A DNA stretch of 55,394 nt from a virus. The notes beneath the pieces were generated by a model. The model made no database searches, was not told where the DNA came from, and saw only the letters and a program-made list of their open reading frames with translations. The stretch spans positions 1 through 55,394 of IMG/VR virus record IMGVR_UViG_3300048813_000197. The stretch is one strand, 5' to 3'. Below are positions 1 to 50,157 of this stretch, piece after piece. Positions within the stretch are counted from its first letter, which is position 1; each line of letters opens with the position of its first letter. The position numbers and the translations under genes were made by a program.

Positions 1-274
1 TCTGTGTGTTCTTATGCCAATAAGCAAACCATGGCCATCGAATTATATCTTCGTAGCGATGAGCGCTTACCAGTGACCACTTACCCTGTGATAATGGCAC
101 CCAACGGTAAAGATTCTCATCTACCTCATACGGAATACTATCCTTGCCAGGCCGAATAAGCGGGCGATGTCCTCGAACGAAACGGCGAGGCTCGCCTTTT
201 ACATGCCCCCTGCCAGAATTATTCTGAGAGGCGATCTTCGTCGGTAATCCACATCCACACTCGCAGAGTTTCAT
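1..274 (-). CDS. HNH/AP2 homing-endonuclease-like protein, N-terminal part (runs off left edge)
   Basis: ATG at 274-272, open to base 1 (about 91 codons), no stop inside the window. The N-terminus is a cysteine knuckle (C4, C6, C8: CECGCG), followed by a GHR motif and then a segment RWVPLSQGKWSLV that matches the 'PLTxGQ' segment of the other HNH/AP2 proteins here. The HNH and AP2 parts would lie beyond the edge. The ATG overlaps the stop of the upstream 45-residue gene (ATGA), so the two are probably translated together. Joining the window ends as a circle would stop this frame after about five more codons, so a simple circular closure does not complete the gene. The family call rests on similarity to the paralogs in this window. 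Confidence 0.72.
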   Translation of the reverse strand, partial: MKLCECGCGLPTKIASQNNSGRGHVKGEPRRFVRGHRPLIRPGKDSIPYEVDENLYRWVPLSQGKWSLVSAHRYEDIIRWPWFAYWHKNTQ

Positions 275-408
275 GCCGCCTTCTTAACCTTTTCCCGATC
301 CCAAATCCGACTCTTGCAGGCCGGGCACGTCTTCGGCGTCCCGGCGATCCGCTGAAACCAATCAATTCCGCAGCGCTTGCAATGTCGGGGTGTACCAATC
401 TTCGCCAT
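271..408 (-). CDS. Zinc-ribbon miniprotein (45 aa)
   Basis: A 45-residue frame with two cysteine pairs, C10-x2-C13 and C28-x2-C31 (CPAC), spaced as in a zinc ribbon, and a basic C-terminus. An AAGG Shine-Dalgarno lies 7 nt before the ATG. The 3' end overlaps the start of the HNH/AP2 gene by 4 nt (ATGA). Function unknown; a small metal-binding or nucleic-acid-binding protein is likely. It lies in a different frame from the longer open frame at 219-479, which lacks this coherent motif layout. Confidence 0.6.
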   Translation of the reverse strand: MAKIGTPRHCKRCGIDWFQRIAGTPKTCPACKSRIWDREKVKKAA

Positions 409-2528: not shown

Positions 2529-5500
2529 CTACATGACCCCGGCTAGTTTTCTGCGCCGTCCGTGACGGACCGGGACGACTTTGTGCGGGGTAACAGCGTA
2601 CCTCGACAGCGGCACTTCCTCATTCGCCAACTGCTCGGCGATCTTTGTCCGGCGCTCCTCCGGTGTCTCCTTGTGCGGGCCGGTGTCGTAGAAAGTGGAT
2701 TGGTAATCCTTCACCGCTTTCACCGCGTTGTACGCATCTCGCGCGGCCACGCCCACAAACATATCGGTCGCCGCATTGATCACCCGATTCTGTTGGACGA
2801 GCTTCTGCTTGTCCTTCGGGTCATGTGTCGCCACTTCGTTGAAGAACTGAGTCAGCACCTCGACACCCATTCCCATCGACACATCGGCCATCGCCGTGAA
2901 CAGCGCTTCTTTCGATGCCGGGTGCGCGGCCAGCCATTCCCTGCGCCGCTTCTCGATCTCGGCTTCAGACGAGCCAGACATCTGATGGCGAAGATGGAGC
3001 ATTTCCTGCAACGCCCAGCCCGCAATGCCGAAGTTTGCGCCGAATCTCGCAATCAACTGATATGGCGCCGGACTCTTCCAATCGGCATGGTAAAGCTCCT
3101 GCCACACAGTCCGATTGACGAGGTTTGCCGTCTTGAACATGAATCCATGCAGAGACTGTGAGATACGCAAGAGCGTGGTCAGGCGGTCATAGAGAGGCTC
3201 GCCAGACGTTCCGCGCAAAGCCGGTGGCAACTCTGACGGCCGCCCGCTGCCGGTTGTCCAGTTGGCGGCTCCTAGTTCGATCTTCTTGACAGTCGCCGGG
3301 CCGTATCCCTTCGCCGCCAGGTTATCGAGTTCCTCGTCCGTGAAGCCGTAGAGGTCGGTGAGTTTCCGGCGCAGCATCGGATTCTTGGGGTCTTTGGCGA
3401 GTTCCGGATACGCATACTTTTCGAGCCACAATCTGCCGGCTCCAGCGGCAATCGCCCGGCTGATGTACATCATCGCCGTGAAACCGTTGAAGTCGAGCAT
3501 CTTTTGATCGAGGCCGCCGGTACGCATACCATATTCGCGCATCCATGCCTGCCGCATGTAATTGGTCATGGCACCGCAGTCCACCGCATTGCGCCTTACT
3601 TCGACAGGAGAGATTGTGCCCTGCAGAATGGCTCTCGCCACACTCCGGGTATTGGTTGCGAGCGAGGTCTTTGCCAAATGGAACGGCAACTTTAGGACCG
3701 ACAGACTCATCTTGCTGAGAACCAGCCAGCGGTTTGCCTGCCGCAAGAAGAAGCGGTCGGAATCGTGGAGTCTCGCTGGCTTCAAATCGGAAGTAATGAT
3801 GCTGCTGACTAGCTTACGATCACGCTCATTGGGAAGATTGTCGATAAGCGGGTCCGTCTTCTGCCGGAACTGGCCGTGGACTTCGGTTGCCGCCAACTTC
3901 TCGGCTACTTCATTCACATACCGCTCGATCGCCTGCCGGTCGCGGCCATACATCGGAATGTCGAATTCCCGCGCGCGCTCGATGTTGCCAGCCAGACGAA
4001 TCCCGCTGCTGTTCCTGTCGAAGAACGCCTGGGCCTGAGATTTCGATATACCGCGCTGCTCCGCGATCTTGTCGATGAGCTTTTCCCGGCGCTCGCTCCC
4101 CTTAGGCATCTTCATGATGTCGCCCAAGGAGGTGACTTCCGGCTTCCCGCCCTCGCCCTTGACTACGAATTTCCGGTTCCAGTCGTACATTCTGGGCCAG
4201 TAATTTGGGTCTTCTTCGATCTTTGAGAACGGAACCTCCTTGCGCTTGCCGCCTTCGTAGATAACCACCGCCAAACCCGCATCCGCGAGTCTCTGTCGAA
4301 CGGTGGCAAAGAACTTGCGGTACTCGGCGACTGCCTTGTTGATGCGTGGGTCATCGGATGTCGTTTTGCCCTCGATGATCTTGGTGACGAGTTCATGCTC
4401 TGGCGGTCGCAGTTTATTCTCGAAAATGATTTTTGCGACCATGCCACCAAATTCGCCGCGGTAATTGCCTGATTTTAGATCGTAGTCGATCATCCGGCGC
4501 TTCAACTCTGCGCCCTCTTTGGGTAGTTTATTCTCGCGGAAAATCTTCTCGACGGCGCAATCCCCCGATGTGCCGAACATCCAGATATTAGACCTGACGA
4601 AGTAGGATGCGGCGCGCGCATTGTCCTTCATGTCGTCCATCCAGATCAGCGCCTCGTTCTCCATATCCCGCGTCTTGCGCTCGGTCGCCGCCTTCACCGG
4701 CTCACCGCTGCCCATGGCCCGACGCCCAGCCTCCGTCGCCTCCAGTTTGATGATGCCCTCGTTCGCTGTGATGGCGCGCGCGGCAGGGGCTGGCAATTCC
4801 TTCGTCCGGGTAAGTAGGTCGGCCCACGCCTCATGCGCCGCTTTCTGCCACGGGTCAAGGTCTTCTTCTCGCGGACCCTGGTAGAGTTTGCGACCCTGCC
4901 CCTTATACTTCATGCCCTTGTTTTTGGCATCCTTCGCCTTCGGCAATTCGAGGTCTTTGATGTGGGTATAACTCGCGCCCTCGCCATCCTGCTCCCATTC
5001 GGCGGATTGCGGTTTGACTTCCTCGCCTTGCTCGTATTGCAACATTTCTTCTGGAATGCCAACCGACTCGCGGAGGTTCTTCGAGAGCCTGGATTCGATC
5101 TTCTCGCCGAATACCGCAGCCTTCAGAGCTCGCATGCGCGGCAGAATTTTGGTTGCCAGAACCTTCATTTCCGGCAAAGTGTCAGATGTCAGAAACACGT
5201 TTGCCACATTTGACTTTGCACCATACCGCCAGGTTCTCCCGGTGCCCTGCTCGAACATGATCCCGCCCCAAGGCAGACCGAGAAAGACTCCCATGCGAGG
5301 CCGGTCGCCAACTTTGTCGTGCGCCGATGCACCGATTCCGCCGGCAGAGTATGTCATGTAGAGCGCATCCTTGGACCCCGCCATAAAGTCGTCCAATTGC
5401 TCCGCGCGTAGTTCGTTGTGCTCTCCGGCGAAGATACCCACTTTGTCGCCAAAAGCATCGCGCATCGCGCCGACAACATCCGGCAACGGCGGAAGCAGTT

Positions 5501-8500
5501 TGTTGATCTGAGCACCCATGTCGCCCGGCAGGTTATGGAAGAAATCCATGCCTTCATCAGCCGGCGAACGGTACTCCGAGAAAAACACGGGTTTCCAGCC
5601 ATCGGCAATCGCCTTTTTTCCGAGGTCAATCGCATCTTTAAGCCGTGCGCCCTCAATGAACCGCTTGAGGTAGATGGCTTCATGCCCGGCTGTCGGGGTC
5701 AGGTACTTGCTCATCCCGGCCTTTTTGAATCCCTCCATCGCCATGGAAAACGCCTTGCGGATATTGCGCACACCGGTTCGAACTTCCTCAGTCTGAGGTA
5801 CAAGAGCGACGTGCGCCTCGACGCCATCCATATCCTTGTGCAACGTTTGCCACTGCCCGCGCTCGACAAGTTGCTGCCTGAGCTTTTCCAGTTTCCCGGC
5901 GGATGCGCCACCGCTGTAGGTATTCGGTCCGACCTCCACCAAACCGAACTGCTTTGCCCATTCAGTGAATCCTCCCTTTGGCCAGAGTCCGAGCTTATGC
6001 ATATAGCCGAGTTCCATGACCGTCGAGTGCGGGGTGGCGCTGGAGTAGACTACCTTCTTTGCGGCGTGGCCCAGCATGACAACCGCTTTGCCCTGCTCGG
6101 AGTCTGTCCAGTTGCGCGCTTCGGCTGATTCGTCGAACAGAACGAAGTCCCAAGGTATAGAGAGGACACCCTTATTTCCGCGAATTGTGGCGTATGTGGC
6201 GGCGTACATTCCCGTCTGGAGGTCGCTCATTTTCGACGGAAGCATGTCTACATCCACACCTAACTTTCGAGCTGTCTCCCTGTATCCGTCATCGCCTTCA
6301 ATCAGGTTCTGGCTGCGAGTGACGATCAATCCAACCTTGTCGCCACCGGTTCCAAGCAGGTGATCGGCGATTGCGGACAGCATCCAGGTCTTGCCGGATC
6401 CTGTTGGGCCAGCCAAAATCGTTCCGTCGAACTGTTGCAAAGCGGAAAGCGCACCCTCGATAGCCTCTGATTGCCCCGGATAAATCATGAGTTGCCGCAC
6501 ATCAGGCGAAATTCGCACAGTCGGCGGCGGCGTGCCAGTCGGCAGCCCGAGCGCCTCCACATGCTCGCGCCACTTGGCGGGATCGACAACCGGCGTTCCA
6601 CGTGGAACCTCCGGCGCTTTGAGCTTGGCCGCCTTTACGCCTGCGAGGGGGTTGGAGTCGGGCTTGGCAATGGCAGTTCCCTTACCTTTTCCGGCTGCAG
6701 GTTCCCGGTCGGCCTCTCCTCGCTGTTCAGGAACTCGGTCAACTGCTTTTTGTCCATCTGTAGCAGGTCCATCAGGTACTCTTCCCGATTTGCCACGATC
6801 ACCTCCCAATGCTATTGCCGTTGGATCGCCATGCGCCTGTTGCGCGGTCACAGCCTGCGCCGGCGTCGTCGGCTCGTTCATCGTCGGACGTTCGCTGATT
6901 CCGTGAACCAACTGGATGACGCTGGTATCCTTCGGCTCTGAACTGCCGCCAATGATTCCTGTCGCGCCGCGGAGTTTGTCTTCGATGCCGTTCAATTGGC
7001 CGCGAAGCAGTGCCTGGCGACGGGGATCCTGCTCCCGCTTTAGTTGTGTTTCAAGGTCGCGCGCCTTCTTTGCCAGTTCGATGGTCTCGTTGAGGCTGGG
7101 CTGATAGAGTTTCTTGCCCTTCTTGGCGTCGGCCAGCATGTAGATGGTGTCTTTGCCTGGCTCTTTGTACATCCGCCACGCCTTGACACCATTCTTCTTG
7201 TCGCCGAGAAACTCGTCGGCTGCCTCTTTGTCTGTGAAGACGAACTTCTGCCCGTTACTACTCACCTCGCGCGGGCTGAAATCTATGCTCTTCAGATTAG
7301 CCGGCCACTCACCTTTCGCGCCTTCCGCCAGTTCATCAACATCGATCCGCGCCGTAATCGGCTTGCGCTCCGCCCGGGTCCAGTCATACCAATGGTCGAA
7401 CATCGCGGTGAGCGCAGGACTCCCCTTTGCCAACTTGAGATTGGTCGCCTGATTGTAGATAGACTGCATCGCGCGAGAGAGGACGGCGAACACCTTCTCC
7501 AACTTGCCGCGCCGAATGCCGCCGTCTACGTGATACCGCTCGTTCGCTTTCGAGAACATCTCCTCTTGCGCATCGGTCCATTCTTCGCCTGGCTTCGCCC
7601 CCACAAAGTCGTTTGCGATCTTTTGGAACTCCGGCTTCATGAACTTGCGGATGTAGTGGGTAACCTCGTGGATAAACGTCGAAATGTCCGCTGAATCCAG
7701 CAACCTGATTACGCCAGTCGCTTCGTCGATCATCTCCATGTAGCCGCGATAGTTCTCCTCTTTACCTCCAACAGCAAAGTTGAGACGGCGATTTCCCATC
7801 AACTCCTCGGCAGAAACTCCGAGAGCGCGGGGAAGGATGTGCTCCAGGTATTGCGTTGCGGCTTCGGCCTGCTCCGGCGTGAGATTCGGATGAGTCTCCA
7901 AAACCTTGCGTAGTTCCTGCAAGGTGCGCGGACCTTCGGGAATGACCTGGGTGACACTCTCCGGGTCCGGCGTCACATCGGCAATCGCAGTCTCTGCGTG
8001 GACTGCGGGTTCAACCGGCAGCGGACCACGGCCATCCTCGATCGCGGCTTTTACGACTTCCGGAAGAGGTGTGACTGCGCCCCATTCTTCGGGGATGACT
8101 TTGAGACCGTAACGGGAAGCGATCTCGTTGGTGAAAACATCGGCCGGGTGTTCCGCGCCGTAGAGTGTTCCCTGTGCCCCATTAGCTTTCTCTGCGAACC
8201 TTGCCATCATCGTCGCGTAGGCGCGCGGTGATTCTTCGAGCGCCATAGCCAGCGCTTCAACTGCCGGAAGAGGCGGTTTATGTGTCGGTTGATCGTCGAA
8301 GCCAAGCATTGTTTGAGTTAACCGGAAACGCTCCGGGTGTAGCATCCGCTCAATATGTGATTCGGTTTCTTCTGCGGCTGGTTTAGGTTCCAGACGCTGA
8401 AAATGCTCGAGGTAGGAAGATTGGTTGCGTGCGCGGTTCGCCAGACGCACAGCATCCGTGTTCATCGAAGCGAGATTCCAGTTCTCGCCCGCATTCTGCA

Positions 8501-11500
8501 TGCCGACAAAGAACAACCCGGCGCGGGTGAGCTTGTCCTTGACGGAATCGGATGCTTTATCCAACACTGCAGCATCTGTGACCGTCAACCCGGCCAGCAT
8601 GTTTTCGAAGAGGTCTTTGGCTTTCTCTTTGAGTTCGCCGTCCTTCGAGACGTACTCCTCAATCTTCGTCGGCGGGATGATCCTGGCATCCTGGAGCAGT
8701 TGCGAGATTTCCGCAGACCGCTCGCGCATCGCCTCTCTGACGGTCTTCGCCCCTTTTGAACTGAAGATATCCATGGAATTGACAATGCCGGATAACCGCT
8801 CCGTGAACTCTGGGGTGAGTAGGCGCTTCATGGCCTCGCCCTGTTCCTCGTCCGACATGCCACCTTCGGGGCCGCGATTCAATTCGGTGCCCAGGCGCGA
8901 CCATTCGATATCTGACTCAATCGGATTATCGAGTACCTTGACGAGAACAGGGTGTTCATATTTCAGAACCTCCGCCGGATCGATCCCAAAGAGCATTGCC
9001 CGGGCGTGGAGTTCTTTGACGTAGTTGGCGAATTTATCTGGCGACTTGCGAATAGCGGTAAGCAACCCAAGCGCACGCCGGTTGCCGGAGATCACATCCG
9101 CCTTTTGGTCGAGAATCGGCGGGCCGGTGGTAGCCGATACTCCATTGTCGAGTACCTGGTCGGGGTCCGGGTTCGTACCGATGGCTTCAACCCGGGCCTG
9201 CGCATTCTTGCTGGTCTTGTAGTTGCGCGGCTGGCCCTTCTGGTTATACCCCTCCCTCTCCTCATAAGTGAACGGCATGTGGGAAGTACGCACGTCGCTA
9301 GCTTCCATCAGCGCGTAATGCGCCTGAAGCTCAGCGCCGTTCCCGTGGGAGACAACTCTGGTTTCGCGGCCAACCGAAATCTTGCCAGCAAACTTCGGCT
9401 GCGGCGCCGGAGCCGGATTCTGCACAGACTCGGCACCCGCGACAACCGCATCCGCCTTCCGCGTATTGAGGTCCGCCGCCTGCTGCGCTGTATTCGCGGC
9501 TTGCGTCTGCCCCTGCGCGCGCAAGTCATCCGCCGCCTGCTGTAAATCGGCGGCCTGCGATGAAAAATGAACAACCTGCTTGACGGCCGATTCCCGCGTA
9601 CCCTCGGCGTCTTCCCTGAATTTTGCCGCAGTCGCCTCGGCCAGCGCCTTGAGAATGTGCTCCTCGGCCGCGAACCGCACCTGCCGCATCCGGGTCAGAA
9701 ACTCGTTGACCGCCGGCGTCCGGACTCTGGCCGGAAGGCTCTGCGCATCGCGCTCTATTTTGAATAAATCCTCAAAGTTATTGACCTGGCCGAAGCCCAT
9801 CTTCGACGCCTGCTCCGTCAATCCCTTGCTCACCCGGTAAAGCGCCTCGAGCGATGGCAATTTGCTCGACAGCGAATCGTAAAGCGCCTGGGTCATCTCC
9901 TTTTGGTGATCGGTCCGCTCCTCGGCAACCAGCCGGTCGGCAACATCCATGTCCATCGCCTGCCGGGTAGCGTCCCTTTGCGCCATGCGGAGCTCGCCGC
10001 GGTGCTGTGCCAGATTCTCGGCCCCCATGTTCGCGAGATCGATGTGCTGGCCAGACTGCATCCGCTCCCTGATGTCTGTCGTGACAAACGCATCGAGCTT
10101 CGCGGGTTTCGCGCGCAGGTATTCAGCCAGCGCCGAAATGCGCCGTTCCGTGTCCAACGAGTCAAACGATCGGCCAAAGAACTTCTCGGTGTGCTCATTG
10201 AGGTCTTTGCTCGTTGCCGGGTCGGCCTTGAGTGTGTTCTCGATATTCAGCCGCGAGATGATGAGTTTGGCGGTGCCGGCAAAGAGATCGGCACCCGGCG
10301 CGAGCTGCTCCTGATCCCCGGTTTCGGTGCGATCGAGGAATGGCTTGAGTGTGGCGTCTAGCCGGTCCGCATGCTTCGCGTCGACGACATGCTGCTCATA
10401 GGCCGGCGTCTGCTTGAAGGATTCCCATTGCTCGGGGTGACTCTTCTCGAGCCACTCGGCGGCCACCTTCTGCCGGTAGACGGGCAGCGACGAAAACGAC
10501 TGGCCCATTTGCTGCTCGGTCAGTTCCTGAACCTTGGCTTCGGCCGCAGTGACTTGTGCTGTGCGCTCCGCTGTCTCGCCCGCTGTCGCGCGGCGATCAA
10601 CTATCGGGACGCCACCCGCTTCCGGATGCTCGGGGTCATACCGCTGGCCCGATTCACGCTCCGTCGTCCAATGGGTGCCGCCTGGGGAGACGTTCTTCGA
10701 GGTGCGGCCTTCGACAACACCAAAGCCGCGCTCTTGTTCCGTGGATGGCTTTTCTTCCGCAGCCTTCCGCGCAGCGTATTCCGTCGCCTGCTTTCTGGAT
10801 TCCTCTTCCTGCTGGCGCTGAAGTTCTTCCTGCTGCTGGCGCGCTGCGGTTTCCCGGCGAAGCGCATCCTGCTTATAGGCCTCTTCCCTCGCCTGGCGCT
10901 CGACAATTTGGCGAGTGAGATTCTTGGCCGCCTGCAAACGCTGCTGGCGTACTTCTTCTGTAGTGGGTTCGGCTGCGGCTGCTCCGGCTTCTACCGCACG
11001 CGGGTCGATCGCTCCGACTCTCGACTTCTTTTCCTTGGCGCGGATCCTCGCGGCTTCCTGCGTCACCCGGGCCTTGAATCGAGGATTCGCGTCTTCGACC
11101 GCTTCGTAAAGGACCGACGCCTTCTGCTCTGAGGTCAGATCACTGAACTTCTTTTTGTAGGCGGACTGCGCCTTGTCATTGAGGATGGCGGTGTTGTCGC
11201 GCTCCTTGAAGTTCTCGATTGCGGTTCGCGCGCCGTGCTCCGCGTAGTGCATCCCGGCGATGACGGCGACATTGCCGAGAAGACTGCCCCATGCTTCCGG
11301 GGCATCGCCTTCCTTTGAATCGCTACTCACGCTCGCGGCAGTCGCGCCAGCTACACCCTCGACGCCGCTTGTGGCGAGATCGGCCTGAAAGCGCAACCCC
11401 ATCGGCGCGGCAATGCTTTCCGGCATTGTGTAAATCGATGCCAGAGAGTAAAGGTTGTCGATGCTGGTCATGCCTTCGACGGACTTGGTAAAGCCCGTCA

Positions 11501-12323
11501 CGGCGCGGGAGAAAGCATTCTTGCTGGTCGGATCGAAGATTTTCTGAAAGGTTTGCGAACCAGATACATTGGCGACCGGCGCTCCGAACGTCTTCGCTAT
11601 CTGCTGCTGGAATCCGACAGTTTGCAGAGCCTGAGCATCGCCTTGCGCCGCCCGATGCTCCAGCATCACCTGCGGGTCGAGTTCGGTTCCCTTGAACATC
11701 GCAGACATGCCGGGGGCGACTGGTATTCCCCCGAAAGAACCGCCGCTGCCAAACAGAACTTCGGCGGTACCACCAGCAATCTTCTTGGTTCTCCTCCACC
11801 ACGTCGGCTCATAAACCGGATCGGGAGGCTTCGTCGCTGGCTGCTGCGGAGCGGTCTGCAAATCCCATCGGTCATTTGCGTTGTATGCGGCATGCTTGGC
11901 CTGCTCGTCGGCGGCGTCGAGGTCTTTCAGATAACGGCGCTCGTCCGCTTCGTTCGCAAATGTCGTCGAGCCAATCGACATCATCGGCGCGATTGCGGCG
12001 ACGTGCGGGACTTTGGAGAACGGAACCTGCTTTACCTGGCCGTTGACCTTGATAGCATAAGTTCCCTCGCCCTTGCCGGTCTTGGGGTCTGGGGGATTGT
12101 CTTCGATCTTGGAAAGATTGTCGGCGGCGGGCGGGCGGGCGGGCTGCGCTGAGAACTTAGCGAGTTTTGAGTTGACGAGATCTGCGAACTTATCTTTGCG
12201 CCCACCTTCAATCTTCTTGAGCTTAGAGTTGACCAAATCCGCAAACGCATCTTTCCCGCCGCCGCTCGGAGGGGGAGCAACAGGGTTAGCCGTGGGTGAT
12301 GGAGCAGTGGCTTGGTCGGCCAT
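2529..12323 (-). CDS. Giant polyvalent protein: metallopeptidase, ParB/DdrB-like and SNF2/Strawberry-notch-like helicase domains with LPD38-like C-terminus
   Basis: 3264 residues, about 18% of the window. Visible parts: a duplicated FADLVNSKL motif (27-35 and 46-54); a charged coiled coil (about 460-530); a ParB/DdrB-like segment with ISGNRRALGLL near 1075; a zincin motif HEVTH (1552-1556); a superfamily 2 helicase with Walker A GPTGSGKT (1972-1979), DES box (D2064, E2065) and a motif III-like SSATPHS near 2090; then a C-terminal region (about 2860-3115) resembling LPD38. Such multi-domain 'polyvalent proteins' are known from phages and conjugative elements and are thought to be injected with the DNA to act early in infection. 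The gene overlaps the upstream gene by one base (TAATG) and follows GNAT, 202- and 587-residue genes, the position of the last internal-core protein in T7-like phages. Helicase, protease and ParB-type activities are predicted from motifs only. Confidence 0.88.
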   Translation of the reverse strand: MADQATAPSPTANPVAPPPSGGGKDAFADLVNSKLKKIEGGRKDKFADLVNSKLAKFSAQPARPPAADNLSKIEDNPPDPKTGKGEGTYAIKVNGQVKQVPFSKVPHVAAIAPMMSIGSTTFANEADERRYLKDLDAADEQAKHAAYNANDRWDLQTAPQQPATKPPDPVYEPTWWRRTKKIAGGTAEVLFGSGGSFGGIPVAPGMSAMFKGTELDPQVMLEHRAAQGDAQALQTVGFQQQIAKTFGAPVANVSGSQTFQKIFDPTSKNAFSRAVTGFTKSVEGMTSIDNLYSLASIYTMPESIAAPMGLRFQADLATSGVEGVAGATAASVSSDSKEGDAPEAWGSLLGNVAVIAGMHYAEHGARTAIENFKERDNTAILNDKAQSAYKKKFSDLTSEQKASVLYEAVEDANPRFKARVTQEAARIRAKEKKSRVGAIDPRAVEAGAAAAEPTTEEVRQQRLQAAKNLTRQIVERQAREEAYKQDALRRETAARQQQEELQRQQEEESRKQATEYAARKAAEEKPSTEQERGFGVVEGRTSKNVSPGGTHWTTERESGQRYDPEHPEAGGVPIVDRRATAGETAERTAQVTAAEAKVQELTEQQMGQSFSSLPVYRQKVAAEWLEKSHPEQWESFKQTPAYEQHVVDAKHADRLDATLKPFLDRTETGDQEQLAPGADLFAGTAKLIISRLNIENTLKADPATSKDLNEHTEKFFGRSFDSLDTERRISALAEYLRAKPAKLDAFVTTDIRERMQSGQHIDLANMGAENLAQHRGELRMAQRDATRQAMDMDVADRLVAEERTDHQKEMTQALYDSLSSKLPSLEALYRVSKGLTEQASKMGFGQVNNFEDLFKIERDAQSLPARVRTPAVNEFLTRMRQVRFAAEEHILKALAEATAAKFREDAEGTRESAVKQVVHFSSQAADLQQAADDLRAQGQTQAANTAQQAADLNTRKADAVVAGAESVQNPAPAPQPKFAGKISVGRETRVVSHGNGAELQAHYALMEASDVRTSHMPFTYEEREGYNQKGQPRNYKTSKNAQARVEAIGTNPDPDQVLDNGVSATTGPPILDQKADVISGNRRALGLLTAIRKSPDKFANYVKELHARAMLFGIDPAEVLKYEHPVLVKVLDNPIESDIEWSRLGTELNRGPEGGMSDEEQGEAMKRLLTPEFTERLSGIVNSMDIFSSKGAKTVREAMRERSAEISQLLQDARIIPPTKIEEYVSKDGELKEKAKDLFENMLAGLTVTDAAVLDKASDSVKDKLTRAGLFFVGMQNAGENWNLASMNTDAVRLANRARNQSSYLEHFQRLEPKPAAEETESHIERMLHPERFRLTQTMLGFDDQPTHKPPLPAVEALAMALEESPRAYATMMARFAEKANGAQGTLYGAEHPADVFTNEIASRYGLKVIPEEWGAVTPLPEVVKAAIEDGRGPLPVEPAVHAETAIADVTPDPESVTQVIPEGPRTLQELRKVLETHPNLTPEQAEAATQYLEHILPRALGVSAEELMGNRRLNFAVGGKEENYRGYMEMIDEATGVIRLLDSADISTFIHEVTHYIRKFMKPEFQKIANDFVGAKPGEEWTDAQEEMFSKANERYHVDGGIRRGKLEKVFAVLSRAMQSIYNQATNLKLAKGSPALTAMFDHWYDWTRAERKPITARIDVDELAEGAKGEWPANLKSIDFSPREVSSNGQKFVFTDKEAADEFLGDKKNGVKAWRMYKEPGKDTIYMLADAKKGKKLYQPSLNETIELAKKARDLETQLKREQDPRRQALLRGQLNGIEDKLRGATGIIGGSSEPKDTSVIQLVHGISERPTMNEPTTPAQAVTAQQAHGDPTAIALGGDRGKSGRVPDGPATDGQKAVDRVPEQRGEADREPAAGKGKGTAIAKPDSNPLAGVKAAKLKAPEVPRGTPVVDPAKWREHVEALGLPTGTPPPTVRISPDVRQLMIYPGQSEAIEGALSALQQFDGTILAGPTGSGKTWMLSAIADHLLGTGGDKVGLIVTRSQNLIEGDDGYRETARKLGVDVDMLPSKMSDLQTGMYAATYATIRGNKGVLSIPWDFVLFDESAEARNWTDSEQGKAVVMLGHAAKKVVYSSATPHSTVMELGYMHKLGLWPKGGFTEWAKQFGLVEVGPNTYSGGASAGKLEKLRQQLVERGQWQTLHKDMDGVEAHVALVPQTEEVRTGVRNIRKAFSMAMEGFKKAGMSKYLTPTAGHEAIYLKRFIEGARLKDAIDLGKKAIADGWKPVFFSEYRSPADEGMDFFHNLPGDMGAQINKLLPPLPDVVGAMRDAFGDKVGIFAGEHNELRAEQLDDFMAGSKDALYMTYSAGGIGASAHDKVGDRPRMGVFLGLPWGGIMFEQGTGRTWRYGAKSNVANVFLTSDTLPEMKVLATKILPRMRALKAAVFGEKIESRLSKNLRESVGIPEEMLQYEQGEEVKPQSAEWEQDGEGASYTHIKDLELPKAKDAKNKGMKYKGQGRKLYQGPREEDLDPWQKAAHEAWADLLTRTKELPAPAARAITANEGIIKLEATEAGRRAMGSGEPVKAATERKTRDMENEALIWMDDMKDNARAASYFVRSNIWMFGTSGDCAVEKIFRENKLPKEGAELKRRMIDYDLKSGNYRGEFGGMVAKIIFENKLRPPEHELVTKIIEGKTTSDDPRINKAVAEYRKFFATVRQRLADAGLAVVIYEGGKRKEVPFSKIEEDPNYWPRMYDWNRKFVVKGEGGKPEVTSLGDIMKMPKGSERREKLIDKIAEQRGISKSQAQAFFDRNSSGIRLAGNIERAREFDIPMYGRDRQAIERYVNEVAEKLAATEVHGQFRQKTDPLIDNLPNERDRKLVSSIITSDLKPARLHDSDRFFLRQANRWLVLSKMSLSVLKLPFHLAKTSLATNTRSVARAILQGTISPVEVRRNAVDCGAMTNYMRQAWMREYGMRTGGLDQKMLDFNGFTAMMYISRAIAAGAGRLWLEKYAYPELAKDPKNPMLRRKLTDLYGFTDEELDNLAAKGYGPATVKKIELGAANWTTGSGRPSELPPALRGTSGEPLYDRLTTLLRISQSLHGFMFKTANLVNRTVWQELYHADWKSPAPYQLIARFGANFGIAGWALQEMLHLRHQMSGSSEAEIEKRRREWLAAHPASKEALFTAMADVSMGMGVEVLTQFFNEVATHDPKDKQKLVQQNRVINAATDMFVGVAARDAYNAVKAVKDYQSTFYDTGPHKETPEERRTKIAEQLANEEVPLSRYAVTPHKVVPVRHGRRRKLAGVM

Positions 12324-14086
12324 TACTTGATACTACCGCCTTGCGCCTTGAATTCTGGATCATCGGCTAATTGTTTTGCCTCGGCATCCGTCAGAGTCAC
12401 CGTGCCATGAAACTGTCCGTGCTGGTATACCTTGCGGGGTTTCGGTTGATCGCCACCCGCCTGCCCCGGAGACGAGGCCGGGGCTGCGGGCGTAGCACCG
12501 GCCTGCGGCGATTCAGGCGTCTTGGTGCTTCCTGCTGGCGCTGCCGCCGGGCCAAACAGCGGCTGCATCCGACTCATGGCCGCGCGCCGGGCCTGGGGGG
12601 ATAGCGCCGTTTCCTTTGAGCCACTCATCACGGCTCGAATCTGTGTCTGGAGGTCGCGCTCCAGATTCTTCAATCCGGCTTCGTCCACGCCGCCAGAATA
12701 CTTACCGTCCGCGCCCGGCTTGCCGAGGTCGGACTTCGAGTGATACTGGTAGCCGTTGTCGCCCTGGCCCACGATATTCGCCAACGCATCGTCCAGCGTC
12801 TTCATGTCCTTGTACTGCGGCAGATTCCGCAGCCGGTCGATGGCCGCAGAGAGCACATCATTGTCGAATTGCTTCGGCTCGGCAATGGCGTCATGCGCGA
12901 TGGACCCGGACTGCTCCTGATTCGCGCCTTCGACTTTCCGCCGGACAAGGGCATCGCGCTCGTCGTCGGAAAGATTCGGAGAGTGTTCCTTGTAGTAGTC
13001 GTCCCACTTTTTGTAATTCTTATCCGCGCCCGATCCCGCTCCGCCACTTCTCCCGCGAGGCTCGTATGTAGCCTGCGACGGCCGCAAAATCTCCGGTGGT
13101 CCACCGTCTTCGGGAAACTGGATAATCTCACCAGTCCTCGTCACCTGGGTCTTGAGGTGCGGGTCAATCTTGTACCCGGCGCCGCGCAGCACTTCCTTAT
13201 CCTGATCGGTGAACTGATATTTTGGATCCGCTTCCGACTTCCGGATAATGGCGTCTGCCGCAACTTTAGCTTCGTCCCCCGGCTTACGCGGCTCGATCTG
13301 CTGTTGCGCCTGGTTGTACTGCTCCCACATGGCCGATGTCCACTGGCTCTGCGGGGTCTTGTTGAGGTCGTCGATTTTCTGCTGAGCGTCGAGTTGAGCT
13401 TGCTGATGAGTGAGTTGCTGGCCCTGCTGGCCGGCAGCCGTAACCTCGTTCTGCGCTCCTTGCGTCCGCGCTGTTCTCGCGGCCTGAGCTTCCGGCGTGT
13501 AAAACTGCTTCACCTGCCAGAGCACTGGCGGCCCAAGTTTCTTCTGAAGCGCGAGTCCTGCCGCAGCCTTAACCTTTGGATCTGGACTCTGCAAATCCTG
13601 CATCAACTGTTGCTGTTGTTGCTGCGGAGATGGCGGCGGCTGATCAGCCTGCTTCTTGTTCGACTTCTTTGGTTTTCCGCCATCTGGCCCATTGACTACC
13701 TTGTCGCGCCAGTCCTGCAGTGCACCCCATGATCCATTTACCGCCGATACAGCCGTCGTGTATTCGTCGCTATTCGGGTCAGTTCCCGATTGCGCCAGAC
13801 TGTAAAGTCGCTGCGCATCCTGCTCATAGGAGGCATGGAGGTTGTCGGTTTTTTCCTGGAACTGTTTTGTGACGTTCGCCGCATGCTGAGCCTTGCCCTG
13901 CATGTATCCGCGGAACACGTTGTCGAGAACTCCAGCAACATTTCCCAGTTTCGTATTTGGAGCGCCTGTGAATTGAAATGGCGGATTTTGTGGCGCTATT
14001 GGAGCCGGATTTGGTGCCGCAACCGGAGGTGCTTCGTATGGCTGATACGGTTGTTCCGCTGTCGGGTTGTAAGTGCTTGATGGCAT
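12323..14086 (-). CDS. Internal virion protein-like, Gln/Pro/Ala-rich (587 aa)
   Basis: A proline-rich N-terminus (1-45) leads into long helical, Gln-rich stretches with a polyglutamine run near residue 157 and coiled-coil potential around 190-270. The C-terminus is Pro/Ala/Gly-rich and ends in a small charged unit with a YQHGQFHGTVTLTDAEAKQL motif like those near the ends of internal virion proteins. No enzymatic motif. It lies between a 202-residue Gln/Ser/Gly-rich gene and the giant polyvalent gene, which is the spacing of the middle and last internal-core proteins in T7-like phages. The role is inferred from position and composition. Confidence 0.75.
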   Translation of the reverse strand: MPSSTYNPTAEQPYQPYEAPPVAAPNPAPIAPQNPPFQFTGAPNTKLGNVAGVLDNVFRGYMQGKAQHAANVTKQFQEKTDNLHASYEQDAQRLYSLAQSGTDPNSDEYTTAVSAVNGSWGALQDWRDKVVNGPDGGKPKKSNKKQADQPPPSPQQQQQQLMQDLQSPDPKVKAAAGLALQKKLGPPVLWQVKQFYTPEAQAARTARTQGAQNEVTAAGQQGQQLTHQQAQLDAQQKIDDLNKTPQSQWTSAMWEQYNQAQQQIEPRKPGDEAKVAADAIIRKSEADPKYQFTDQDKEVLRGAGYKIDPHLKTQVTRTGEIIQFPEDGGPPEILRPSQATYEPRGRSGGAGSGADKNYKKWDDYYKEHSPNLSDDERDALVRRKVEGANQEQSGSIAHDAIAEPKQFDNDVLSAAIDRLRNLPQYKDMKTLDDALANIVGQGDNGYQYHSKSDLGKPGADGKYSGGVDEAGLKNLERDLQTQIRAVMSGSKETALSPQARRAAMSRMQPLFGPAAAPAGSTKTPESPQAGATPAAPASSPGQAGGDQPKPRKVYQHGQFHGTVTLTDAEAKQLADDPEFKAQGGSIK

Positions 14087-14094
14087 CTCGTCTC

Positions 14095-14703
14095 CTAAAG
14101 TGCGAACAGTGCGCCGAGGCTACCTGCCGACCCTGCAGCGCTGAAGATGTCGCCACCGAGGCTGCTCAGAGCCCCCAACTGCTGCCCTTTAGCCTGCTGT
14201 TGAACCTGATACTGCTGCATCTGAAGACCGCCAAGCGAAGTAAGGGCGCTATTCGCGGAATTCAATCCAGAGATACCAGTGCCAGCCGCTGAAATCGATT
14301 CGCCGGTTCCTTGACCCGCGAGAGATGCGAGTGCATTGTAGCTACCGCTAACCGCGCCAGATGAGACTTGTCCCACTTGAGCGCCCTGCGAAACATCCGC
14401 CTGCTCCAAAGCAAGATTCTTCTCACCGCCGGACGGAGCGTTATTCATGATGTTCTGCTTCGCGCCCGCTGTCGCTTGTGCAATCTGTTGGGTTTGCGGG
14501 GCTACTGCGCGCGCAATAGCATAGGGGTCGCCCGAGGCGAGCGTGCCGTAAAAGTTCTCCGCCGACTGAAATCCCGGGTTTGCCTCATTGAACAAAGTTT
14601 GCGAATTCTGGTTTTGAGATTGAGCGATTGAGACAAGCGCATCTTCGTTCTGCTGGAGTCCAGAGGTAACAGTAGGCGTAAGCCCAGCATTCGATTTTCC
14701 CAC
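14095..14703 (-). CDS. Internal virion / channel-type protein (202 aa)
   Basis: Low-complexity Ala/Gly/Ser/Gln protein without cysteines or membrane-spanning helix until a small hydrophobic C-terminus (GSAGSLGALFAL). Many short amphipathic helices (for example residues 110-180). The gene lies directly before the 587- and 3264-residue genes with an 8-nt gap, as the smallest internal-core protein does in T7-like phages, where it helps form a channel across the envelope. The analogy is positional. No homologous motif can be named. Confidence 0.65.
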   Translation of the reverse strand: MGKSNAGLTPTVTSGLQQNEDALVSIAQSQNQNSQTLFNEANPGFQSAENFYGTLASGDPYAIARAVAPQTQQIAQATAGAKQNIMNNAPSGGEKNLALEQADVSQGAQVGQVSSGAVSGSYNALASLAGQGTGESISAAGTGISGLNSANSALTSLGGLQMQQYQVQQQAKGQQLGALSSLGGDIFSAAGSAGSLGALFAL

Positions 14704-14771: not shown

Positions 14772-15245
14772 TCAGGCGCGCCCGATCATCCTCGCGAAGT
14801 GGTAGTCGTTTAACGGATCGTCCAGCACAAGCCGCGAAGCCCGGTACCAGCCATTGAATTCTCTCGCCAGATAGCGTTCATTGATGAGAACCACCTCGTC
14901 GGTAAGCGCATCATTCCCGAACCAGGTAGCCCCATTGAACAGGAATCCACAATTAAACTTGCTGCGGGAGCACTCTACTCTTACCCGCTGATTCCAAATA
15001 ATGTTCGCCCATACACGCCCGACCACCCGATATGGGGACATGATGAATCCCGGCCTCATATTGCCGTACCAGAGCGTTCCGTAAGCTCTGTGCGCAGTGG
15101 TGATGATCGCGTCGTTGTCGTCGAACTCTGTGAGGTGTTGACCAAAGAATTCGTGGTTGATTGCGGGCTTTGCTGCGGCTGCGGCTGGCAGCGCCAATGC
15201 TGCTCCGACCGCGACGAGCGACTTTCCGAAGTCTCTGCGATTCAT
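14772..15245 (-). CDS. Tat-signal protein, hypothetical (157 aa)
   Basis: The N-terminus is a twin-arginine signal: NRRDFGKS followed by a hydrophobic Ala/Leu segment and an Ala-rich cleavage region (AAAAAKP). Mature part about 125 residues, aromatic-rich, with two cysteines. The ATG at 15245 follows GAGGTGG at close spacing; the GTG at 15251 would put the signal two residues further in and is less likely. It lies between the GNAT gene and the internal-virion cluster. Folded export by the Tat route is predicted. Function unknown. Confidence 0.75.
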   Translation of the reverse strand: MNRRDFGKSLVAVGAALALPAAAAAKPAINHEFFGQHLTEFDDNDAIITTAHRAYGTLWYGNMRPGFIMSPYRVVGRVWANIIWNQRVRVECSRSKFNCGFLFNGATWFGNDALTDEVVLINERYLAREFNGWYRASRLVLDDPLNDYHFARMIGRA

Positions 15246-15252
15246 ACCCACC

Positions 15253-16020
15253 TCACATCCAATTCAACGGCAAATACGGCTGCTCTTCCTTTGCCGGCTC
15301 AACTTCCGTGATAGTCAACTTCTCTTCCGGTTCTGGCTCGAATGGCTTAGCCTTCCGCCACTCATTCACCAGGAACTCACTGACCACTTCCTCAAAATCC
15401 GCCCTCAACAGCGCCGAGACCACCATCGGAACCAGTTTAGTCCCGCGCAACTGGAAGCAGGGGATCTGGCCGCAGTCGTTGAAGCCGAACCGGGACATGA
15501 ACTTTGCGGTCAAGACGTTATCGATGTACCTATTTCCGATCACGCATTGAAGGTCAAACTCCTTGAACAGATAAGCCAACCCGAGCATGGTCAGAATCGC
15601 TTGGTCTTCCGAACCCCAGGCACTCGAAAAAAAGGCGTAGCCGCAGATGAGCGACTTCTCCGTATTCGGCCCACCCATTGAAACCGTCGAGAACGCGAAG
15701 CCGAGCTCGACAAACTCCTCGTCCACCCATTTGCCGAGAATCAACAGGACCGGCCGCGAAGCGAGATAGGTGACGACTGAATTGAAGTCCGAGGCTGGGT
15801 TGCCGCCGAACGTCGCGGAGAGAATTCCGTCTCCAGACCGTCTTTTGGATTCTCTGCATCGACGATACAGATGCGCAAGGAATTCTTCGTCGAACAAGTC
15901 GCGGCGGTTGCGATCATAACGTATGACCTGCAAATCACCCCATCTATACTCGTCTTCTTTTAAGGCGCCGAGAACATCAATTTCTTCACTCACGCTTGCA
16001 AGTATACACTTCCAAATCAT
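15253..16020 (-). CDS. GNAT-like N-acetyltransferase / internal virion protein
   Basis: Up to 255 residues. A central segment has the strand-turn-helix typical of the acyl-CoA site and the segment after it (CVIGNRYIDNVLTAKFMSRF), where phage GNAT proteins carry a short loop then FGFN. Phage GNATs of this kind occur next to internal-core genes in podoviruses. Start is uncertain: ATG at 16020 lacks a Shine-Dalgarno, while GTG at 15993 (VSEEID) lies just after the TATACT box at 16006-16001 and would be nearly leaderless. The C-terminal 35 residues are acidic and Pro-rich and look like a tail. Catalysis is not shown; a virion structural role is the alternative. Confidence 0.68.
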   Translation of the reverse strand: MIWKCILASVSEEIDVLGALKEDEYRWGDLQVIRYDRNRRDLFDEEFLAHLYRRCRESKRRSGDGILSATFGGNPASDFNSVVTYLASRPVLLILGKWVDEEFVELGFAFSTVSMGGPNTEKSLICGYAFFSSAWGSEDQAILTMLGLAYLFKEFDLQCVIGNRYIDNVLTAKFMSRFGFNDCGQIPCFQLRGTKLVPMVVSALLRADFEEVVSEFLVNEWRKAKPFEPEPEEKLTITEVEPAKEEQPYLPLNWM

Positions 16021-16032: not shown

Positions 16033-16091
16033 TAAAATAGAGGGGTCGGGTGTTGAAGCACCTGGCCTTATTGCTACTGGAGGTAGCGACC
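16033..16091 (+). promoter_or_regulatory. HNH leader: promoter, 5' hairpin and SD-in-loop hairpin
   Basis: TAAAAT (16033-16038) with TTCCAA 17 bp upstream. The leader has GGTG (16049-16052) pairing with CACC (16059-16062) across a 6-nt loop, then GCTAC (16073-16077) pairing with GTAGC (16083-16087), which places TGGAG, the Shine-Dalgarno, in the loop 9 nt before the ATG. The first part is nearly identical to the leader at 50.1 kb. The second stem differs in sequence there but keeps its pairing. Confidence 0.6.
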
Positions 16092-16796
16092 ATGACCCCT
16101 CACGAAATCAGTTTAGCACCATGCCGATGCGGTGATCCTAACTGCATAACCCCGTTCGGATATTGCCATTGCGGATGCAACCGGAAGACCATCGTCTCCA
16201 TAAGGAACAGCACAATCCACCGCAAGAAAAAGGGATTCCCGCTTTTCTTTATCAACGGGCATAACGGCGTAAAACCGCGCCCGGCGATAACACAACCGAG
16301 TGATCTATATATAAGACTTATTGCTTTGACTCGGGGCCAAGTGGCGCGTGTCGATACTGCCGAATACGAGCGCATCAATCAATACCATTGGCGGGCGCAA
16401 TGGAGTGAGGATATGCATTCATATTACGCAGTGCGGAGTGTGATCGTTAACGGTAAAGAATCTGTGATTATGATGCAGGGCGATGTTCTCCCTGCTCCGG
16501 ATGGATACGTCACAGATCATATCAGTCGAGACACACTGGATAACCGCAAGATCAATCTTCGTTATGCCACTAATTCCCAGAACGGTATGAATGCAAAGAA
16601 GCGATCAAATAACACCAGCGGGCATACGGGGGTTTCTAAAAATAAAAAAGATGGATTATGGTGGGCCTCAATACGATGCGAGGGGGAATTGATCCATCTT
16701 GGCCGATTCATTCTCATTGAAGATGCCATAGATGCGAGGCATAAAAAAGAAATCGAACTATTTGGGGAGTTTAGTCGCATCCATAGAGACCAGTAG
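16092..16796 (+). CDS. HNH/AP2 homing-endonuclease-like protein (234 aa)
   Basis: The N-terminal cysteine-rich knuckle (CRCGDPNC...GYCHCGC) is followed by a GHN motif and the PLTRGQ-type segment (here ALTRGQ). The HNH core has D142-H143, with the LDNRKINLR helix following. The AP2 part starts at NTSGHTGVSKNKK, has LGRF, and ends at FGEFSR. Unlike its paralogs it reads MMQGD where they have LHR, so the usual first His is missing and activity may be lost. Start: ATG at 16092 with a looped GGAG; upstream codons to 16050 lie inside the leader. Opposite strand to its late neighbours and overlaps the 3' end of the 113-residue gene by 39 nt. Confidence 0.86.
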   Translation: MTPHEISLAPCRCGDPNCITPFGYCHCGCNRKTIVSIRNSTIHRKKKGFPLFFINGHNGVKPRPAITQPSDLYIRLIALTRGQVARVDTAEYERINQYHWRAQWSEDMHSYYAVRSVIVNGKESVIMMQGDVLPAPDGYVTDHISRDTLDNRKINLRYATNSQNGMNAKKRSNNTSGHTGVSKNKKDGLWWASIRCEGELIHLGRFILIEDAIDARHKKEIELFGEFSRIHRDQ

Positions 16797-18931: not shown

Positions 18932-21900
18932 CTAGACTGGTACTTCTTTCAACTGATAACTGTGGCCCGCGCCGATTGGCTTCCAAAGAACGCGCACGGG
19001 AGTCCACAACTGAAACTGGTTTGGCGGGACTGGCGCGTTCTCGACCGCGATAAATCGCCATGTCCTGAAAGTGAATGCCGTGGTGCCGGGATTGACGTTG
19101 CCATGCCTGACGCGGACCACTATCCGGGTCGCGGATGCTGGGAGAGTAAAAGTAAAATAAGGGGTCGCATTGTTGTCTGCGTAGAGGTTAACCGTGATCG
19201 GAACGGTTGCGCTGTAATCATAGTACGATTCCTTCGCAAACTTACTTTCCTTGGTTCCGAACTCCACCCAATAGGAATCCGCACTGGCGCTATACTCGGC
19301 TAATTCCGCCGCGTAGATATTCTCCTGGTAGAGAGTGGGCGCAACCGTCACCGCCATCGTATGCAGAATCGAAGCACGATATGCTTGCTGGCCGGAACCA
19401 GCATTGACCAGCAATTCGACTTTTTGCCTATTCGTGCCCGTATTGATCGTCGCCAGGGGAACAGAAATTGCTCCATCTTCGAAAAGGAGGGTCGTATTCA
19501 AGACCTGATTCTCGGTGTTAACATCAGTCTCGATCTGGTTCCATTGCTTTGGGAAATGCGGCTTTCCCAAGTCGCGATACGGATGCTGGATGGTGATATT
19601 GATTGGCGTCTGGACGAGAGCGCCGGAAACCCAGCCGCCGTCATCATAGTCGCCTACCTGATCCTGCACCACAGCGTAATTGCCGCCACCCATCGACTTG
19701 CCGACGAGCAGCGTGTTGATGTCTTTCTCCCAGAGCATTGCGGTTGCGGGAACGTCGTCATTCCGGTAACGCTGATATTGAGTATCGTAGTCAAGCCGAT
19801 ACCGCTGGCCAGAGTTGAGCGTGCTCACGTAAGAGCAGTAGACCACGTTGTTGTAGTAAGCCAGGATCGACTGCGAGAAGTCCGCTTGGTTCGCTTGCGG
19901 CGGCAGGCATTCCGGATTGCCACGGAAGATCCACTCGACGGGAAGTGTCTTGTAAACGCCATCCGCGCCAGAGAATTCGCGCAGGCCGTCCGCAGCCTGA
20001 TACCAGATCGCGCCTTCGACCTCAATCCATCCCTGCTGCGCGACGATGCCATGGACAGAGCCTGTCGGCTGAGGATAAGGATTTGCGCCGCCGACGATAA
20101 TCCACCACGACTTCAATGTGCCGACAATCAATGTTCCACGCCAGTTGATGACGGCATTGATCGGATCATCAGGAGTTGAGACCGGGATGTAATTCTGAGG
20201 TCCAAAGTTCTCCGGCAGGCCCTTCTTCGAATAGTAGAGATAGTGCGGATTGTTTGGATCGCCGGCCAGCCACGCCTGGTTATAGGCGAACGCGCAGAGA
20301 TTGCAGGCTTGCCGCGGCACAGCATAGACGTTGACCGGCTCGCCGACGTTGTGCTGCAGGCGAATAACGGCCGAGAATGAATCGACTCCGCCCGCAATGA
20401 CTGAAACGATCTCGAGATTTGACGGATTACCGATCGCTACTAATTGATTGGGAAAGAAGTCTGCCGCCGGAGCAGAGACCGTAACAATCTGCGGACTGAA
20501 TAGCGAGTAAATCGACGATCCTGGTGGAGATGTTGCCACAGAGAGCGTCGTCTGAATCGGGTTGATGAGCGATGAAGTAACGGGTGGGTCGTTGTCGAGA
20601 ACCAGAATCTGCGCCTGCTCTATGAACGCATCCGCAATCACATCCTTGAACACCACCTGGCCAGTTCCTGTGATGTTCGGAATCTGTCCAACCTGCACCC
20701 AGTTCGCGCTGAGAGTTCCACCTCTCCGATAGAAGCGAACATGCGTCACCTGGGGGTCCGGCGAGTAGTAACCGACGCATTGCGCAGCTTGCCGCAGGAA
20801 GATGGGCGCCGAAGTCGAGGCTAGATATCCATAGTCCTCATTGAACTCTTGAGCAGGTGTTGGATTGGATTCAGTGCCGGTGTTGGCGTTGTAGTAGGTC
20901 TGCCGCCAGTCGTAGCCCACGCCGGCAAAAGACGACGGTCCGTACCCCCATTGCAGGTAGAGGCCGTTGACGGAGAACGATACGCCGCCGACATTTGCAT
21001 TTGCGGTGACGGTCAGAGTCCAGCCGGTGACGTTCGCCCAATCGAGGCCAGCCTGGCCAGCTTGTCCAACAGGAAGGAAGTTGCCGCGCGGGATATAGCA
21101 TGCCTGCCACGCGCTTGCCCCTGTCGAGATGTTCGATGGCTGCAATTGCGCCGAGGTCGTGCCCGGTGGTTGCCCGGTAATCAAGTTGAGGGTGTCAGCT
21201 AGAATCTGACTCTGCGTTGCCTGATAGGCGAGCGTGCTGCCACTCAAAGCCCCTTGGTAATAGGCTGGGGAGATGAATGCAGAATAGTAATTGCTTGGAT
21301 TGCTGGTATTGCTGTTGCCCACCCAGAACTGAAGTTGAATCTGCGATATGTTCGCCGGATTCGATGTCAGCAGGGTGATAACGATCAAGTCGCCGTCCGT
21401 CACCTGATTGTTTTGGCTAAGGTCAAGGGCGGGCGATGCGCTCACTGTTCCGCTGGTACTTGCCGCAACATTCCCGGCCCAGGCTGAGATTGGGAATGCG
21501 GTTGTCGTGGGCGGCACCCACTCATAGAATCCCCATGCGCTCATCTGCGATGGATATGGGGCGCTGTACTCGTCTGTCAAAACACAGGCATACGGCGCTG
21601 CCGCGCCGCCGGTCACATAGCCGCCAGCAGTCGCGCCAATCAGTGTGGCCGAGGTGAAGGCCACCGTCAGAGTGGTCGTGGTCGGCGCCGCAATAACTTC
21701 ATAGAATCCGTCCACAAGATCGGAAGATGACGCATATATCGCAATGAGCGCGCCGGCTGACAATCCGTGCGCCGTCGAAGTTCTGATCAGGAGTTGCGTA
21801 TAGAGTCCGCCAACGAGCGTTTGCGAGGCAACCGATGCAATCGGAATATTGACCGAAGTGTTGGTGTTTAACAGCGACAGCATCCCATTCGTCACGGGTC

Positions 21901-23032: not shown

Positions 23033-23034
23033 GT

Positions 23035-23081
23035 TATACTCTCCCCAGTGCGGTCCACCCCGCACTCACCGGAGGCAACCG
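23035..23081 (+). promoter_or_regulatory. HNH leader: extended -10, 5' hairpin, SD
   Basis: TGTTATACT (extended -10; TATACT at 23035-23040). AGTGCGG (23047-23053) pairs with CCGCACT (23060-23066) across a 6-nt loop, so the hairpin would be at the 5' end of the transcript. GGAGG (23071-23075) lies 6 nt before the ATG at 23082, inside a weak CGG/CCG stem (23070-23072 / 23079-23081). The site overlaps the ribosome-binding region of the divergent large tail gene. Confidence 0.55.
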
Positions 23082-23885
23082 ATGAGCACCCTGTTGGCAC
23101 AGGTGGCTGAACCGCGATTTCAGTCTACCAAGAAACCTAAAAATCCGTGGCAATATAACGCATGCCCATACTGTGGAATACAGAAAGTCCGCTATGCGAA
23201 GGCGTGCCGTGTCTGTATTATCCCTTTGAAAAAGAAACCAAAAAGGCGGGATATGTCCCGCCCCGAAATCGCTCAGCCGAGCAATCCCTTGATTAAACTT
23301 GTCCCACTTACCAAGGGGCAGGTTACAGAAATTGACGCCGTAGATTATGACCGAGTGATACGCATTAATTGGATGGCTGTAAAGGCAACCACTCGATGCG
23401 GGTTCACCGTTTCCACCGCAGGACTGGAGAGGGTCAATGGTAAGCAATCCTACACTAGACTGGCTAATTTCATTCTCGGGGTTCCTCGTGAAATAAGAGT
23501 TGATCACATCGACGGGAATGGACTCAATCATAAGCGCGATAATCTCCGACCAGCCACTCAAAAACAGAATAGCTGGAACCGCTCCCGTCTTACCACAAAT
23601 ACAAGCGGATATATGGGGGTGTCTCGTGTCCAATATCGAGCGCAGATCATGGTTGATGGAAGAAAGATTAATCTCGGAACATTTAATGACCCCATAGAAG
23701 CCGCCAAGGTACGCGACGTAGCCACGCTTCACTGCTTCGGCGAATTCGCTCGACTTAATTTTCCCGAGTTGATTGATGAATATCAAGCGATCCTCACTAA
23801 GTTGGAGCCACAACAGACACTATCAGCCCATTTTTTACGGTCATACTTCCGTTCGAGCCTCCGCCTGTTAACTTCGCAAGCGTAA
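23082..23885 (+). CDS. HNH/AP2 homing-endonuclease-like protein (267 aa)
   Basis: N-terminal CPYCG...CRVC zinc ribbon (residues about 28-50), then PLTKGQVTEID, HNH core DHIDGNGLNHKRDNLRPAT, and AP2 unit with NTSGYMGVSRVQYRAQI, LGTF and FGEFARLNFPE. After LNFPE about 35 further residues extend into DNA antisense to the 24.0-kb gene (89-nt overlap) and show no paralog similarity. The paralogs' LHR is here RLANF, so the first His is missing. ATG at 23082 is preceded by GGAGG. Upstream codons to 23019 overlap the leader hairpin. Nicking or cutting DNA for its own spread is the family role, not shown here. Confidence 0.86.
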   Translation: MSTLLAQVAEPRFQSTKKPKNPWQYNACPYCGIQKVRYAKACRVCIIPLKKKPKRRDMSRPEIAQPSNPLIKLVPLTKGQVTEIDAVDYDRVIRINWMAVKATTRCGFTVSTAGLERVNGKQSYTRLANFILGVPREIRVDHIDGNGLNHKRDNLRPATQKQNSWNRSRLTTNTSGYMGVSRVQYRAQIMVDGRKINLGTFNDPIEAAKVRDVATLHCFGEFARLNFPELIDEYQAILTKLEPQQTLSAHFLRSYFRSSLRLLTSQA

Positions 23886-50101: not shown

Positions 50102-50157
50102 GATCGCTCCTTGGGCGATTAGGCTTGCCGGTGCTATCAACACCTGACTCCTCAATT
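50102..50157 (-). promoter_or_regulatory. HNH leader: 5' hairpin and SD-in-loop hairpin (covaries with 16.1-kb copy)
   Basis: Minus strand: AGTAAAAT-type -10 (TAAAAT), GGTG-N7-CACC hairpin (50144-50130) and ATCGC-N7-GCGAT (50119-50103) with AAGGA in the loop, ATG at 50101. The first half is nearly the same as at 16033-16062. The second stem has different bases but pairs perfectly in both copies. Confidence 0.6.

Follow-up and report, generated by a model that had tools for sequence, protein, structure and literature searches.

The largest gene of the window, which is the entire IMG/VR contig of 55394 bases, encodes a 3264-residue protein that, on sequence grounds, is a genuine new, fast-changing member of the known class of phage polyvalent proteins, which are presumed to be injected together with the phage DNA. 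The chain combines a DdrB-type ParB domain and an SF2 ATPase, both above the Pfam curated cut-offs, with an HExxH motif, and in carrying several disparate domains per chain it resembles the phage-type polyvalent proteins described by Iyer et al. in 2017 (PMC5512222), among which the DdrB-ParB, zincin and SWI2/SNF2 ATPase domains are published hub domains (PMC5512222). We consider it probable, at roughly 0.65, that the protein is made late, is packaged in the head and enters the host cell along with the DNA, and that it acts against host defence.

Locus, gene context and relatives

A single 3264-residue frame had been predicted at this locus, with no strand given; the open reading frame was confirmed and belongs to the minus strand (Table 1). 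The motif positions given there (HEVTH at 1552–1556, GPTGSGKT at 1972–1979, DES(A) at 2064 and SGNRRALG at 1079–1086) were exact or within ~6 residues. Judging from its length, which is far above chance expectation, and from eight homologues of ~2500–3400 aa, the frame is a real gene. Its start is overlapped by one base by the TAA stop of the preceding 587-aa gene (TAATG).

Table 1. Positions of the polyvalent protein gene, of the parts of its product and of the conserved genes upstream
Feature	Residues	Position	Strand	Remarks
Polyvalent protein gene		2529..12323	minus	3264 aa; ATG start at 12323; homologues known
Tandem motif KDxFADLVNSKLxK x2, N-terminal	24–57	12153..12254	minus	candidate capsid-targeting signal
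Swappable N-terminal module	~70–550	10674..12116	minus	without recognised domain
DdrB-like ParB domain	995–1130	8934..9341	minus	NR/NGR motif at 1079–1086
Putative zincin	1500–1610	7494..7826	minus	HEVTH 1552–1556, E1587/E1588 in next helix
Junction motif 1, KLYQP	1738–1742	7098..7112	minus	
SF2/SNF2-Strawberry-notch-like ATPase	1946–2400	5124..6488	minus	Pfam, motifs, hhalign
Junction motif 2, KLYQGP	2479–2484	4872..4889	minus	low-pLDDT linker; L015 ART-PolyVal insertion site
Junction zone	2480–2545	4689..4886	minus	holds C-terminal exchange breakpoints and L015 insert site
C-terminal helical module	2545–3264	2532..4691	minus	weak model; Foldseek likeness to internal virion/polyvalent proteins
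Upstream Gln/Pro-rich 587-aa gene		12326..14086	minus	directly precedes polyvalent gene in relatives with this stretch
Upstream conserved 202-aa gene		14098..14703	minus	without assigned family
Upstream conserved 255-aa gene		15256..16020	minus	weakly GNAT-like, PHROG E=0.057

The terminase (~40.8–43.0 kb), portal (~38.2–40.0 kb) and major capsid (~34.9–35.8 kb) genes lie on the same strand as the giant gene, which forms the far end of this conserved late-gene block. In all four records that contain both genes (the window, G002, G005 and G007), the giant gene was found ~20–28 kb downstream of the terminase on the same strand, and giants of 3200–5000 aa occupy the equivalent position in the GenBank phages Parlo, ZX1, USP_25 and N4 (gp50). 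The 255-, 202- and 587-aa genes upstream are kept in relatives, with partial matches in some. These had been described as three internal-core-type genes; their presence and synteny hold, but no internal-core HMM matched them, and one is weakly GNAT acyltransferase-like. For the 202-aa gene, the assignment as an internal-core protein was rejected after PDB and PHROG searches without a match.

Several other reading frames were recorded in the window. A 159-aa ORF among the late genes (14775–15251, minus) encodes a signal peptide resembling the TAT type (MNRRDFGKSLVAVGAALALPAAAAA; Pfam TAT_signal E=0.045) and has no counterpart among the relatives compared, and a 1377-aa ORF of the late region (18932–23065, minus) has no Pfam or PHROG match. 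Because several of the ORFs at 2–283 (minus), 16041–16793 (plus), 23016–23882 (plus), 37541–38296 (plus) and 49403–50191 (minus) match one and the same ORF of the relative L007, and because AP2/HNH_3 domains were found at 49403–50155, the phage appears to have around five related genes of an HNH/AP2 homing-endonuclease-like type, of which three are opposite in strand to the late genes.

Seven uncultured phages and a single Acidobacteria bin contain homologues of the giant protein. Those from IMG/VR are of similar length (L003–L007 and L012) or partial (L002), and the partial homologue L015 lies on a contig that binning placed in an Acidobacteria MAG. With residues 300–3264 as the query, no relative was found among GenBank phages at E≤1e-5, and a search of 396 genomes of the phylum Acidobacteriota gave no homologue beyond the bin already known. 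Since this bin also contains, on a different contig, a 94% identical coat protein, it points weakly to an acidobacterium as the host, with a binning error being possible. The coat protein of the window phage is 92–95% identical to those of G002, G003, G005 and the L015 bin, whereas the giant protein of the window shares only ~51–63% identity with its homologues in G002, G003 and G005.

Modules of the chain

The predicted ParB/DdrB-like module was upheld by HMM, profile–profile and fold evidence. The domain matched Pfam PF18763 (ddrB-ParB) at E=3.4e-14 and the DdrB protein of phage P1 in hhalign (probability 97.1%, E 7e-11), and the top BFVD fold matches of its model (pLDDT ~75–90) were DdrB-like proteins with probability 1.0. 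The active-site N/R of the DdrB family is retained, and the region that follows the domain is conserved among homologues.

The evidence likewise supports the assignment of residues 1946–2400 to the DarB/Strawberry-notch-type SF2 ATPases. This region matched Pfam AAA_34 (E=2.7e-8) and ResIII (4.4e-5), and aligned with the DarB-like helicase of Serratia phage Parlo at an hhalign probability of 95.8% over 425 columns. A family HMM matched four GenBank phage giants (E 1e-11 to 1e-14). As for the ParB/DdrB-like module, the predicted helicase has HMM, profile–profile and fold evidence in its favour. The motifs comprise Walker A, DESA (2064–2067), SATP and a QxxxRxxR-type motif VI (2359–2366), and motifs I, II, III and VI (Walker A, DESA/DESS, S(A/G)TP and Q..xR..R) are kept across the aligned homologues. 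Scans of the window protein and of segments of its homologues gave no methyltransferase match, whereas the Parlo and Vibrio proteins, used as positive controls, matched MTS. Because the fused methyltransferase is absent, the methylation mechanism of DarB is not simply transferable to this protein. A separate PF01555 DNA methyltransferase gene is encoded at 45833–47101 on the plus strand (E 2e-46); since a relative of it was found in only one of the seven other phage contigs, which are mostly fragments, the data give no support for a fixed partnership.

The segment around HEVTH is probably a self-cutting protease, as judged from its motif and conserved context. HExxH is kept in seven of the eight homologues, its Glu and second His are invariant in all, and in the following predicted helix the E-E..F..A...Y of the pattern QEE..F..A...Y (E1587/E1588) is likewise invariant; the chance expectation of HE..H in a protein of this composition is 0.09 occurrences. 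The motif and downstream Glu agree with what has been published on polyvalent zincins (PMC5512222). This conservation argues against reading HEVTH as a degenerate zincin or a chance motif in a chain that acts unprocessed, an interpretation compatible with any of the roles considered below and one to which we give a minor but real chance. In its favour, the homologue L006 (8588–10000) carries VEEVGH in place of HExxH, with the first His lost and a 49-aa insert nearby, a PDB fold search of the region found no match, and hhalign with the zincin region of the N4 virion RNA polymerase reached only 5% over 15 columns, covering the active site alone. The predicted protease thus retains its motif and conserved context, but lacks an independent fold match. 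L006 probably represents a natural loss-of-function variant, and because of its lost His, protease activity would not be universal in the family.

The C-terminal 720 residues are predicted to be nearly all helical. In Foldseek, their model resembled phage internal virion, structural and polyvalent proteins with probabilities of up to 1.0, and tape-measure proteins with probabilities of at most 0.13; because the model is poor (mean pLDDT 57, TM ~0.2 to the matches), we treat the internal-virion resemblance as a lead only. No sequence match to the proteins of phage LKA1 was found for this region. The LPD38-like end that had been proposed was not borne out: none of the eight rows scanned with Pfam contained an LPD38 match, and hhalign with a true LPD38-bearing protein gave 0.3%, whereas a Vibrio phage protein used as a positive control matched LPD38 (PF18857) at 1e-43. 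A PLxRFG motif in the C-terminus (LIARFG) was rejected, since the PLxRFG motifs of ZX1 and Parlo stand in a different sequence context.

A comparison of the N-termini of the window protein, L004, L007 and L012 revealed three versions of the first 60 residues, and in every version a short motif is duplicated in tandem (FADLVNSKL, TFKIPV or KYPEY). Because in P1 DarB the first 30 residues are enough to direct a protein to the capsid (PMC9024508), the N-terminus with its duplicated motif may, by analogy, have a capsid-targeting role. Weak Pfam matches to Gluconate_2-dh3 near the N-terminus of some homologues were discarded, as no single stretch passed, and weak PDB sequence-search matches to ABC-transporter Walker regions and bromodomains were taken as chance. 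The large stretches described as lacking any domain are now partly resolved into a swappable N-terminal module, the conserved region after ParB and the helical C-terminal module.

Exchange of modules among relatives

Divergence among the homologues is modular. L003 and L004 are ~99% identical through the helicase and only ~26–58% identical after residue ~2540; L006 and L002 are near-identical through the helicase and show a similar drop after ~2500. L003 and L005 are ~90% identical overall, with identity falling from 85% to ~20–50% over residues ~70–540. In a tree of residues 2545–3264, L004 grouped with the window protein and L002, and forcing it to group with L003 and L005 cost 187.5 log-likelihood units (AU test, p ~5e-62). 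Judging from this tree, the C-terminal part of L004 derives from another lineage, and the relatives swap whole sections.

L015 contains a 154-residue insert at position 2486, which is an ART-PolyVal domain (9e-20) flanked by KLYQMP and KLFQMP, with KLYQMP occurring again at the other flank of the helicase; in the window protein, the helicase flanks are KLYQP and KLYQGP. As a separate observation, four places in L032 (12790–16878) of Tunturiibacter phage Tunturi_5, a jumbo phage of an acidobacterium, matched the ART-PolyVal query. The KL[YF]Q(P) motif might be a family-specific junction tag, that is, a recognition and cleavage site of the zincin that flanks the helicase and marks a slot for cargo modules such as ART-PolyVal, although we regard this as unlikely. 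If it were true, the protein would be a self-processing injectable cassette carrier. An exact coincidence of the breakpoints with KLYQ was rejected, as the breakpoints lie ~20–60 residues downstream. L[YF]Q is absent from P1 DdrB and from the N-terminal third of DarB, and because the other polyvalent proteins examined showed no enrichment of it, it was rejected as a general linker of such proteins and kept only as a family-specific lead.

Proposed role and comparison with known systems

The position of the gene, which closes the late block, and the internal-virion-like C-terminus are consistent with packaging and injection, and P1 DarB and DdrB are themselves head proteins (PMC9024508). A comparable giant, JC1 gp69 (4515 aa), was identified through 51 unique peptides in CsCl-purified virions (PMC9144972). 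Whereas the modules, their order and conservation, the gene context and the module exchange are observed, we infer packaging, injection, autocleavage and antirestriction from homology and position. The protein would be produced alongside the virion proteins, with its N-terminus serving as a capsid-targeting signal and the helical C-terminal module as a virion or ejection anchor, and would be packaged inside the head and injected with the DNA. In the first minutes in a new host, the SF2 ATPase would translocate along the incoming duplex DNA, and the ParB domain would contribute NTP-dependent DNA binding or nicking; the two might protect the phage DNA from host defence or process it, as is the case for P1 DarB and DdrB, and the internal zincin might cut at flexible junctions and so release the working units of the chain.

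The polyvalent proteins and the window protein share a late phage gene context, and ART-PolyVal is present in the homologue L015. Unlike the polyvalent proteins, the window protein has no detectable LPD domain, its C-terminus matches none of their listed domains and its helicase lacks the usual fused adenine methylase. P1 DdrB (996 aa) shares the homologous ParB domain, and in both proteins a zincin-type HExxH follows ParB; however, the window protein, at three times the length, has in addition the SF2 ATPase and the long C-terminal module, no homology between the two was detected outside the ParB domain, and the zincin MPTase is C-terminal in the DdrB family whereas the HExxH region is internal here. 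The DarB-like giants (P1 DarB, Parlo with 3764 aa, Klebsiella ZX1 and Burkholderia JC1 gp69) share a related SF2 ATPase and the position at the end of the late genes; in contrast to them, the window protein has a ParB domain and no methyltransferase, and the transglycosylase and LPD39 of Parlo are absent.

A mainly structural or ejectosome protein, comparable with T7 gp15 and gp16, in which the enzymatic domains would serve DNA entry, with an ATP-driven motor pulling the DNA in, instead of opposing host defence, would also fit a gene that follows the portal, the capsid and three conserved late genes, as well as the helical likeness of the C-terminus to internal virion proteins and the intact SF2 translocase motifs. 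The N4 virion RNA polymerase (gp50) is an analogue in position (portal, capsid, structural genes, giant gene), size and HExxH domain, but unlike in gp50, no RNA polymerase domain was found in the window protein with Pfam, PHROGs or NCBIfam. T7-type internal virion proteins share the late position and, on a low-confidence model, the Foldseek likeness of the C-terminal module, whereas the window protein has enzymatic modules upstream and no likeness to them was detected by sequence. The fast divergence relative to the coat protein, the swapping and the optional ART domain look like those of conflict proteins, and a DdrB-ParB domain is typical of polyvalent proteins, which makes a mainly structural role rather improbable. 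A late-encoded but unpackaged factor of head morphogenesis or replication, with helicase and ParB acting during assembly, is very improbable: a link to head morphogenesis has been described for the P1 Dar proteins themselves (PMC12810830), but JC1 gp69, a comparable giant encoded at the same position, is abundant in virions (PMC9144972).

Neither the family nor its methylase-free ParB–zincin–helicase architecture and exchange points were found in the literature searched. The cutting of giant injected phage proteins, and the sites at which it occurs, have been proposed since 2017, with no demonstration found in the literature searched. The family offers a comparative handle on this problem, in that near-identical coat proteins stand beside a fast-evolving giant with a natural variant that has lost the zincin His, defined points of module exchange and a cargo domain that has a repeated short motif on either side.
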